Virus record (IMG/VR): IMGVR_UViG_3300019873_000006
Coordinates: 1 to 21,590 of that record
Reading direction: 5' to 3' (one strand)
Length of the DNA stretch: 21,590 nt
DNA from: a virus
Of the stretch, positions 13,988 to 21,590 are shown piece by piece. The notes under the pieces are model-generated. The model was not told the origin of the DNA. It searched no databases and saw only the letters and a program-made list of their open reading frames with translations. The translations under genes were made by a program, and so were the position numbers. Numbering within the stretch: the stretch's first letter is position 1; every line of letters starts with the position of its first letter.

Positions 13988-14130
13988 TGCAACTCGGGCC
14001 GTCGAGTTGTATGGCGAGTTGCACGCCTAGTTGTATGGGTTGCACTGGAGTTGTATGAGAGTTGCACTGCCTGACCTGGGAAGTTGCAGCGAGTTGTATA
14101 GCTTCAGTGTGACCGGGTACCTGAGTTGCA
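13988..14130 (+). repeat. Iteron-like AGTTGTA/AGTTGCA array; candidate replication origin
   Basis: The seven-base unit RGTTGYA occurs at 14005, 14017, 14029, 14038 (GGTTGCA), 14049, 14060, 14082, 14092 and 14124, and once reversed at 13988-13994. Most steps are 9-12 bases, close to a helical turn, and the first six copies alternate TGTATG with TGCAC, making a higher-order unit of 20-24 bases. The array starts two bases after the RepA-like helicase stop codon and holds no gene. Its position and phasing fit origin iterons bound by a replication initiator; this is inference. Confidence 0.7.
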
Positions 14131-19531: not shown

Positions 19532-19791
19532 GATCATCCCTGCTTCCTTGATCGTTCGGACAAGATCATCGTCATGATCGGCCACACGGCCAGGGGGGAG
19601 ACCATGATGATCACCCGACCCAGTTCGATTGCGTTTGCAAACATGATCTTGTCCTCTCTTGATCTTGGCTTGACCTTGATCGGTAAGCCCGTGACCAGGG
19701 GGAAGATCAACTTCCCCTTGATCATGGACCGGCCGGTCAAGATCAACTGTCAAGATCACCCAGGTGGGGGATGGCCGGGTCCTTTTCGATC
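19532..19791. repeat. GATC cluster
   Basis: GATC starts at 19532, 19550, 19564, 19576, 19609, 19645, 19661, 19678, 19705, 19720, 19741, 19754 and 19788: thirteen in 260 bases, where about one is expected by chance. Most sit in TTGATC, AAGATC or TGATCA context. Five more lie between 19896 and 20047. Part of it comes from start-codon leaders (GATCATG), but most copies lie within or between short frames. It may be a methylation-sensitive or protein-binding region. Confidence 0.6.
19534..19644 (-). CDS. 36-residue membrane peptide
   Basis: A GAGAGG site lies eight bases ahead of the ATG at 19644. The product is MFANAIELGRVIIMVSPLAV then WPIMTMILSERSRKQG: one membrane helix with a basic tail. The same frame continues upstream to an ATG at 19725 (63 residues), which lacks a ribosome site but would use the otherwise empty sequence. 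It lies inside the GATC cluster, so its coding status is moderately uncertain. Confidence 0.45.
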   Translation of the reverse strand: MFANAIELGRVIIMVSPLAVWPIMTMILSERSRKQG

Positions 19792-19967
19792 ATGTACTGG
19801 AGGGCGACCAGGTAGTTTGCTCGGAGGCCCTTCACGTTGCGATTGCGAAGCCTGGGCTGGGGGTTTGCTTCGAGGTTTGCGATTGCAACCTCGGTGATCT
19901 TGCCGGTGAGGAGAGAGATCGACTGGCCACGGACAAGCCGGACCGGGGTGGGAAGGGGGGTGATCAT
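19743..19967 (-). CDS. Hypothetical 74-residue protein
   Basis: GGAGG lies eight bases ahead of the ATG at 19967. The product MITPLPTPVRLVRGQSISLL contains a strand and helix (TGKITEVAIANLEANPQPRL), a basic stretch (RNRNVKGLRANYLVALQYMI) and an acidic end. It is the first gene of the leftward block beside the terminase intergenic region. A longer overlapping frame (to 20127) has poor composition and is rejected. Function unknown. Confidence 0.68.
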   Translation of the reverse strand: MITPLPTPVRLVRGQSISLLTGKITEVAIANLEANPQPRLRNRNVKGLRANYLVALQYMIEKDPAIPHLGDLDS

Positions 19968-20130
19968 TTGGTGCCTCCAGTTGATCTTGGGTACCAGGTG
20001 GGGTTTTCCTCCTGGTGTTCCCCCAGGATATGCCCCGGAGCATGATCATCTCTACCCCTGGAGGGTAAAGAGAAGGCAAAGTCTTCAAGTGTCCGAGTTG
20101 TGGTGGTACATGCACATACGTACCCATGTG

Positions 20131-20290
20131 TGGGGGTAGGTGTGGGTTTAAGGTGTTAGGTCTCCCTTGCCCTGGTATGGGGTGGTGTAGGTGGGTAGGT
20201 GTGGGTATGGGGTGGTATGTCCGTATTGAGTGGGTATGTATGCATGTGGGTGGGTGTGCCCTGGTATGGGGTGATGTGGGGTGATAGGTC
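20131..20290 (+). repeat. G/T-rich tandem-like repeat tract
   Basis: A 20-base unit CCCTGGTATGGGGTG with flanks occurs at 20169-20188 and again at 20258-20277 with one difference. A third partial copy, GGTATGGGGTGGTATG, is at 20204. Between them GGTGTGGG, GTAGGTGGGTAGG and GTGGGTGGGTG fill the tract. The plus strand is nearly free of C and A. Runs of three or four G separated by short loops could form G-quadruplexes. Confidence 0.7.
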
Positions 20291-20386
20291 CTAGATGTCC
20301 GTTTTGTCGCTTCTGCGAGGTTTGCTCTTGATCATCCCGGGCCCAGCGACGCTCCAGTATCTACCGGATGCTCAATTTCCCATTTG

Positions 20387-20409
20387 TAATACCGCCAGGT
20401 AACACCTAG
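20387..20409. promoter_or_regulatory. Operator-like element upstream of the terminase genes
   Basis: GTAATACC (20387-20394) is followed three bases later by AGGTAACACCT (20397-20407), so two half-related units lie side by side. The second matches the window-wide motif exactly. It ends 17 bases before the small terminase ATG, with the ribosome site AGGGTGAGG between. TGTAAT at 20386 is a possible -10 box, in which case the element would cover the transcription start. Confidence 0.6.
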
Positions 20410-20423
20410 AAAGGGTGAGGTAG

Positions 20424-20936
20424 ATGGCAAGTAAGGATGTGGTTGTCCAGCCGGGCAACGGTGACGAGTTCCAGGGCTCCGAGGGCTCGAAGGCTCTGAC
20501 GCCCAAGAGGAGCGACGGCACCCCCGCCCGGAGGAACCACCTGGAGCGCGCGTGGGTGAAGCACCGCCTGATCAGGGACTTCGCTCTGGGCGAGAAGACC
20601 GGTCAGCAGATGGCCGCGGAGTACGGGGTGTCGGCGACGTCGATCTCGGCGTTCAAGAAGCGGAATCTGATGGCCATCGAAGAGGTTAGGAACAACCTCG
20701 CCGACGAGTATGCGGGGGTGTGGGTGGCGCAGAAGATGGCGCGCATCCAGGAGTATCAGGAGGCGGCGGAGAAGATGGCCGATGGGCGTTCTCCGCGTAA
20801 CCAGGAGGTCCTGGTGAGCATCTTGAAGGCTGTCGCCGAGGAGCTGGGCCAGTTGCCGGCGCGTCAGCAGGTCAACGTGTCGACCGAGAACGTCACCTAC
20901 CAGGTGGTCGGCATCCCGCTGGAGGATCTCCAGTGA
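20424..20936 (+). CDS. Terminase small subunit
   Basis: A 170-residue product: a disordered, charged N-terminus (MASKDVVVQPGNGDEFQGSE), a helix-turn-helix (LGEKTGQQMAAEYGVSATSI, then SAFKKRN, about 56-82) for binding the packaging site, a long coiled helix (LADEYAGVWVAQKMARIQEY), a second helix for oligomerisation, and a short tail (VTYQVVGIPLEDLQ) likely to touch the large subunit. The call is strengthened by the large terminase that starts inside its stop codon (GTGA). GAGG precedes the ATG. Confidence 0.85.
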   Translation: MASKDVVVQPGNGDEFQGSEGSKALTPKRSDGTPARRNHLERAWVKHRLIRDFALGEKTGQQMAAEYGVSATSISAFKKRNLMAIEEVRNNLADEYAGVWVAQKMARIQEYQEAAEKMADGRSPRNQEVLVSILKAVAEELGQLPARQQVNVSTENVTYQVVGIPLEDLQ

Positions 20937-21590
20937 CCGATAAGGTGGATGGTCTGATCGAGGAGGCTACGGCCAGGGCGGACAAAGCGCGGCGTGAGGC
21001 TCGGCGCCAGATGGCTCTGGCTGGCCAGTCGAACACCCATCACTATCAGCCTCACGGGACGTGCATCGAGCTGTTCAAGTACCGCGGGGACGAGGTGCTG
21101 TTTGCGGGGCCGGCGGGTACGGGGAAGTCGAGGGCGTGCCTGGAGAAGCTCCACATGATGGCGCTGTTGAATCCGGGGATGCGTGGTCTGATCTGCCGTA
21201 AGACGCTGGCCAGCCTCGGTAGTACCGCCCTGGTGACGTTCGAGCAGCATGTAGCGAAGGAGCATCTGGCCGCGGGGGAGATGAAGTGGTTCGGTGGCTC
21301 GCCGAAGGAGGCGGCCTGCTACCGGTACAAGAACGGGTCGACCATCACGGTGGGCGGCATGGACAAAGCGATGAAGATCATGTCGTCGGAGTACGACATC
21401 GTGTACGTCCAGGAGGCGACGGAGCTCACCGAGCTGGACTGGGAGTCGATCACCACGCGCCTGAGGAACGGCAAGGTGTCGTTCCAGCAGTTGATGGCGG
21501 ACGCGAACCCCGATGTGCCGACGCACTGGCTGAAGGTGCGCTGCGACAAGGGGAAGACGCAGATGATCCGCAGCCGGCATGAGGACAACC
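20933..21590 (+). CDS. Terminase large subunit, N-terminal part
   Basis: The GTG at 20933 overlaps the small subunit's stop codon. The visible 219 residues hold the packaging ATPase: Walker A LFAGPAGTGKS (59-66), CRKTLASLG as the adenine-side loop, Walker B DIVYVQEATEL (155-165, catalytic Glu161), and LMADANP (188-193) as the coupling motif. This motor drives DNA into the capsid. The C-terminal nuclease domain lies beyond the right edge. Confidence 0.93.
   Translation, partial: MTDKVDGLIEEATARADKARREARRQMALAGQSNTHHYQPHGTCIELFKYRGDEVLFAGPAGTGKSRACLEKLHMMALLNPGMRGLICRKTLASLGSTALVTFEQHVAKEHLAAGEMKWFGGSPKEAACYRYKNGSTITVGGMDKAMKIMSSEYDIVYVQEATELTELDWESITTRLRNGKVSFQQLMADANPDVPTHWLKVRCDKGKTQMIRSRHEDN

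Follow-up and report, generated by a model that had tools for sequence, protein, structure and literature searches.

An oriented, helically phased repeat array beside a probable genome terminus in a virus fragment related to Streptomyces phage Dagobah

The window analysed here is the whole of the virus record IMGVR_UViG_3300019873_000006 (21,590 bp), and the element in question is a G/T-rich tract near its right-hand end (20131-20290), upstream of the gene encoding the small terminase subunit (terS). The underlying structure of this tract is an array of GGTRTG-like elements, arranged in a single orientation with a period of about 9.85 bp. The tract is probably the upstream arm of a pac-type terminase recognition site, in which the small terminase (TerS) would bind the phased array and the large terminase (TerL) would act at the adjacent cut; the array would thus be the likely landing pad of TerS on viral DNA.

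The phased array and the conserved terminus block

The original prediction had singled out the tract as about 160 bases with a G/T strand bias unlike the rest of the window, and this description holds: G+T amounts to 80.0% (76 G, 52 T, 18 A, 14 C), compared with 65.6% in the richest 160-mer elsewhere in the window and 68.8% in the most extreme 160-mer over 60 whole-window dinucleotide shuffles. The label 'G/T-only' was too strong, as A and C make up 20% of the tract. The near-duplicate units reported 89 bp apart were recovered and extended to 33 nt, and the 13-mer GGTATGGGGTGGT is found in two exact copies and once more with a single change. The placement just upstream of the small terminase was also correct, with about 130 bp separating the tract from the TerS open reading frame (ORF) at 20424.

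The A/T periodicity of the tract at 9.5-10.25 bp reached a power of 11.6, which none of 2,000 shuffles attained. No other 160-mer in the window showed so strong a 10-bp periodicity (11.5 in the tract, 4.8 or less outside it). The original prediction had not picked up this periodicity, the single orientation of the elements or the conserved terminus block a short way downstream. Eleven slots could be read in the core of the tract, about ten of them carrying GGTRTG-like elements (Table 1), and Tandem Repeats Finder detected a weak 10-bp array at 20173-20219. The G/T bias arises because a G/T-rich element is repeated in one direction, and the telomere-like or Chi-like character also proposed for the tract was unsupported, the bias being a by-product of the oriented repeats. 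Since the elements share one direction and recur once per ~9.85 bp, all of them are presented on the same helical face.

A corresponding signal was recovered from a set of 22 relatives, scanned relative to a reference point ('the cut') set two bases to the right of the 20350/20351 boundary described below. Autocorrelation upstream of the cut peaked at 10, 20, 30 and 40 bp (z 9.6, 9.1, 3.3 and 5.1, respectively), and the A/T period was 9.75-10, with maximum power at 9.75 (z 17.3). Along the loci, the periodic signal was confined to about -420 to -20 of the cut, being strongest from -140 to -60. GGTRTG occurred 91 times on the plus strand and twice on the minus strand, and the distances between TRTG cores peaked at 10, 20, 30, 40, 49-50 and 59, with a best period of 9.85. 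The unit sequences differed widely between relatives (GGTATGGGGT and CTATGCCCCA among them), while period and place were kept; array length was variable, reaching over 200 bp. In the pair L008 and L009, 26% of array positions differed, with zero indels in 294 bp and 18 TRTG sites in common. Many relatives carry a conserved block where the array begins on its left side (TATACCCCTAGTGTA ... GGCAAAGG), found in the window at ~20045-20078 (TACCCCTGG, GGCAAAG) and at the equivalent place in L004, L010, L011 and L024; on the minus strand, this block could be a leftward promoter.

The nearest cultured relative found was Streptomyces phage Dagobah (MT711977; 67% identity in TerS, 69% in TerL), and the window is a fragment of an actinobacterial virus related to it. 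Dagobah ends in a direct terminal repeat (DTR) mapped from read coverage with PhageTerm (PMC7650747). This DTR spans 1187 bp and is annotated at 1-1187 and 46115-47301 in two identical copies. Its right end, at position 1187, reads GGGCTGTGCGAC/GGTCCGATTTCTACCGG (that is, GCGAC/GGTCC, the slash marking the boundary), and the window carries the homologous sequence GGGCCCAGCGAC/GCTCCAGTATCTACCGG around 20350. Because the two blocks are homologous, the window would be cut at 20350/20351 and the tract would lie inside the DTR, ending ~60 bp before the cut. The original prediction had suggested a packaging recognition site or genome terminus, and the position of the Dagobah DTR right end within this neighbouring block supports it well.

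A profile of the terminus region matched 25 other loci at E < 1e-5, in each case upstream of terminase genes, although a few of these loci are contig duplicates or the second copy in Dagobah; the window, a seed of the profile, scored E 1.4e-29, and E 2.1e-21 with model R1. The motif GACG-TC was invariant across the 22 rows of alignment A2. The block occurred once per record, save for one marginal extra match (E 0.003) and for the complete Dagobah genome, which holds two copies, the second ending with the genome. The record from which the window derives is a fragment with a single copy of the terminus region, and presumably represents a junction, either of a concatemer or of a circular assembly, at which the two DTR copies have been merged into one. 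Beyond the cut, two conserved GTAAYACC-like repeats have a reverse complement that, judged by eye, resembles GGTRTG or GGTRTT, being array-related and inverted. The distance from cut to terL varies from ~520 to 1270 bp (L007, L010, L016, L017, L005, L026, L028) because of extra sequence beside terS, apparently small inserted genes.

Array and block largely occur together. Loci with the cut block mostly contained 6-57 phased TRTG pairs per 160-mer, whereas the 18 TerL relatives in which no cut block was detected (L015, L021, L023, L030-L039, L041-L043 and the isolates P1312 and Xkcd426) contained at most three in any 160-mer; L023, L041, L043 and L039 are weaker controls because their contigs begin too close to terL, and the contig of L013 starts too near the cut for its array to be scored. 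A tract of this type is therefore conserved in position in most relatives with the same TerS, and absent from TerL relatives lacking the block. The original prediction was to be given up if a distant cos or pac site were mapped and the tract proved unconserved, and neither was encountered. A search of viral contigs for phased TRTG patterns carries no information on other phage groups: the strongest of the matches listed are GT and minisatellite repeats, and among the matches listed only L094 (the contig of the already known L009) has the cut block.

Table 1. Coordinates of the array, the terminus region and associated features in the window.
Feature	Position	Strand	Basis
G/T-rich tract: oriented ~9.85-bp phased repeat array, probable pac-like left arm	20131-20290	+	Composition, A/T periodicity
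Near-duplicate, 33 nt, 89 bp apart	20168-20200 and 20257-20289	+	85% identical, repeat family D1
Array core: 11 slots, about ten GGTRTG-like elements	20174-20278	+	Read from sequence and motif positions
Array slots 1-5	20174 GGTATG, 20184 GGTGTA, 20194 GGTAGG, 20204 GGTATG, 20214 GGTATG	+	
Array slot 6, irregular	20222 CGTATT	+	
Array slots 7-11	20233 GGTATG, 20243 CATGTG, 20253 GGTGTG, 20263 GGTATG, 20273 GATGTG	+	
Conserved spacer ahead of the cut (consensus TTTGCTTCTGCAAAGCTTCCT...), degenerate in part in the window	20304-20345	+	Alignment A2
Conserved terminus block GCGAC/GCTCCAGTATCTACCGG; putative terminase cleavage site and right-hand DTR end, 20350/20351	20346-20368	+	Dagobah homology
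Two conserved downstream elements, GTAATACC and GGTAACACC	20386-20393 and 20398-20406	-	Alignment A2
terS, small terminase	20424-20936	+	Synteny with terL; weak PHROG match; homologue in 22 related loci
terL, Terminase_3 large terminase, runs off the window	20933-21589	+	Pfam PF04466, E 7.5e-8; PHROG large subunit, E 3.6e-12
Stem-loop resembling the Dagobah DTR left end; candidate left boundary near 19697	19676-19739		Weak profile score

The small terminase and a possible mode of recognition

The terS product matched the PHROG terminase small subunit weakly (E 0.004) and had no Pfam match. Its AlphaFold model (predicted local distance difference test, pLDDT, 66) contains helices at 43-55, 60-67, 71-80, 82-119 and 126-142, in which a helix-turn-helix (HTH, about 43-80) followed by long helices is predicted with modest confidence; an N-terminal HTH with a helical oligomerisation domain, encoded by a gene adjoining terL, is the arrangement sought in a small terminase. 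A fold search returned no significant match, with generic HTH matches only and HK97 TerS at E 4.6, and no TerS relative was confirmed in a prophage search of a bacterial genome collection. The Dagobah gene HUN42_00004 (MT711977.1, 1282-1794), annotated as 'putative transposase', is a small terminase by homology and synteny.

Published TerS rings comprise 8-12 protomers, whose HTH segments are arranged on the outer side (PMC11331095). The spacing between neighbouring HTHs in such rings is roughly one B-DNA turn, and for SF6 and SPP1 a conformational-selection or wrapping model has been put forward (PMC4737164); footprints on SPP1 DNA were interpreted to mean that pacL, next to the cut, is wrapped (PMC4856287), an interpretation that has been contested (PMC9611059). 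By this scheme, the HTH domains around the TerS ring would bind successive helical turns of the array, and TerS would bend or wrap ~100 bp of array DNA. The wrap would load TerL on the adjacent conserved GAC/G-TCC block, and cleavage at GCGAC/GCTCC (20350/20351) would then generate one genome's right end at a concatemer junction. On the far side of the cut, the inverted related elements at 20386-20406 may form its second flank, like pacR in SPP1. A fuller version, a sequence-coded counterpart of the wrapping model, is a real possibility though short of an even chance, namely that the TerS ring wraps at least ~100 bp around its outside, with one slot per protomer HTH, that this fixes the cut of a DTR phage, and that the array can be swapped for TGCAAA repeats in sister phages.

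The exceptions among the relatives bear on that last point. In Dagobah, L019, L022 and L025, the place of the GGTRTG array is taken by sequence rich in TGCAAA/TTTGC, and such repeats, in both directions, were observed upstream of the terminus in Dagobah (1040-1170), L019, L022, L025, L016 and L014. TGCAAA/TTTGC elements also lie directly beside the cut in most relatives, and may therefore be a second recognition element, multiplied in the array-less exceptions. The TerS recognition helix carries Asn in the array-less L002 (Dagobah), L019 and L022, and Thr in most others, a covariation with array type that amounts to about one event because these three cluster in the tree. In L011 and L004, A/T phasing was retained with few GGTRTG elements.

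Several observations weigh against the reading as a TerS-bound pac-type site. The cut block is accompanied by little or no array in Dagobah, L019, L025/L040 and L011/L012, and by a low count in L022; GGTRTG is scarce in L011 even where phasing persists. The array is thus not universal at this terminus, since Dagobah, L019, L022 and L025 are without it, and Dagobah is the sole relative with mapped ends. The terminus in the window is itself inferred through strong homology, the mapped reads being those of Dagobah, and the identity of TerS rests mainly on synteny. The array keeps no more than a loose phase with respect to the cut (R 0.40, p about 0.03), and TRTG sites show only a slight deficit of substitutions between L008 and L009 (0.22 inside vs 0.28 outside). 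From other phages, it is known that DNA threads through the TerS ring in HK97 (PMC11331095) and that the SF6 TerS DNA-binding domain has little sequence specificity (PMC4737164).

Alternative explanations and the wider context of the window

The tract lies in a divergent intergenic region, with a leftward ORF starting at 19967 and terS starting rightward at 20424, and no ORF of at least 60 aa crosses the array core. This position would suit a transcriptional operator array between the small leftward genes and the terS operon, to which a repressor, or TerS in a purely autoregulatory role, would bind, with no direct part in cutting. We regard such a reading as unlikely: no sigma-70-like promoter or intrinsic terminator was found in the region, in a scan restricted to those types, and the array hugs the conserved terminus block and extends to over 200 bp, which is unusual for an operator. 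In SPP1, pac and the promoters of terS overlap (PMC4737164), which would allow the two roles to be combined. Wrapping of the array by a bending protein other than TerS, such as an integration host factor (IHF)- or HU-like protein, gyrase or a replication initiator, which would join the terminus sides or start replication or recombination, has a smaller chance still of being correct. Gyrase sites do show phased G/C variation (PMC6379681), and lambda cos requires an IHF-assisted bend (PMC4856287), but gyrase sites have a 10.75-bp period and two arms (PMC6379681), whereas here the period is 9.85, with nothing at 10.75, in one continuous oriented array, and only phages possessing this TerS and cut block carry it. 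A gyrase strong site was accordingly rejected as the identity of the tract.

Slippage generates tandem repeats of fixed length, and the weak 10-bp array at 20173-20219 might be taken for a decayed minisatellite, a functionless by-product of tandem duplication. This is improbable given a non-integer period that persists in the same place across relatives with widely differing units, and the absence of any indel in the 294 bp compared between L008 and L009 at 26% divergence. Least credible of all is a G-quadruplex element. The tract has a G-rich strand and a G4Hunter score of 0.77, and canonical motifs occur in seven of the 22 relatives; no canonical G3+N1-7 quadruplex is present in the tract of the window or in the other 15, so that quadruplex potential is not conserved. 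G-runs in the tract do not exceed dinucleotide expectation, GGGG occurs at the expected frequency, single-strand folding is no better than in shuffles (z +0.58), and several relatives have CCCC in the array slots. Quadruplex propensity, put forward as a distinctive feature in the original prediction, was accordingly not upheld. A hairpin was likewise rejected, being unconserved and folding no better than shuffles, as was an RNA element, all Rfam matches falling far below gathering scores.

A candidate for the left end of the DTR was also located. In Dagobah, this end lies at the hairpin base inside a conserved stem-loop also present in L019 and L022, flanked by GGTAAGNCC ... hairpin ... ATGGNCCGGCCGGTCA and situated between leftward genes. 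The stem-loop of the window scores weakly against the profile (E 4.3), with exact matches to both conserved flanks. Weaker homologues were observed in L003 (24092-24164), L018, L020, L027 and L028, with more than one copy in some loci; because of this recurrence, the stem-loop may primarily serve the leftward genes, in transcription or processing. The remaining genes of the window encode an endolysin, a metallophosphoesterase, an exonuclease, an endonuclease VII, a helicase/primase-like protein and regulators, with terS and the truncated terL at the end. After the helicase-like gene, an imperfect 22-bp tandem repeat (GAGTTGTATGAGAGTTGCACTG, three copies) occupies 14003-14069; among the 160-mer regions of the window, this one (~13994) ranks second in G/T richness.

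Relation to known packaging sites and significance

As published, the pac site of SPP1 and SF6 (pacL-pacC-pacR) resembles the present one in having recognition DNA upstream of terS that flanks the TerL cut, and the TerL found here is likewise of the SPP1 type (Pfam Terminase_3, PF04466). Its ring-shaped HTH TerS (G1P) has been proposed to carry a nucleosome-like wrap of ~100 bp (PMC4737164, PMC4856287). Unlike SPP1 and SF6, the phage studied here has a terminus that, by homology, is a DTR end, and an explicit oriented array of ~9.85 bp. Headful packaging, which defines SPP1-like pac sites, does not apply to the relative Dagobah, a DTR phage; the available part of its description mentions no pac element (PMC7650747). 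The TerS, TerL and terminus block of Dagobah are homologous to those of the window, with TGCAAA/TTTGC repeats replacing the phased GGTRTG array.

Short repeats beside a terminase cut are familiar from other phages, as in the hexamer repeats of P1 pac. The R-sites of lambda cosB, three in number, are a further case (PMC4856287). Both differ from the array in having few, irregularly spaced elements with no turn-by-turn phasing, and lambda differs also in its cohesive ends and its need for an IHF bend. Strong gyrase sites are comparable as long degenerate regions whose phased base composition reflects wrapping (PMC6379681), yet their period is 10.75 bp, their two arms flank a central cleavage site and they have no oriented hexamer. 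The present site is best filed as a recognition site of a known kind, new in combining a probable DTR terminus with an explicit oriented, helically phased array.

Whether the small terminase wraps DNA or has it threaded through its ring has been called a 'major debate' (PMC11331095) and described as unclear and controversial (PMC9611059). An oriented, turn-phased array limited to one TerS type and adjoining a terminus of a mapped type is predicted by an external wrap and unneeded for threading, and makes a debated model of packaging directly testable. About 20 relatives supply natural binding substrates with many variants of spacing and sequence, and the terminus block provides a read-free sequence signature for the probable physical end in this phage group.
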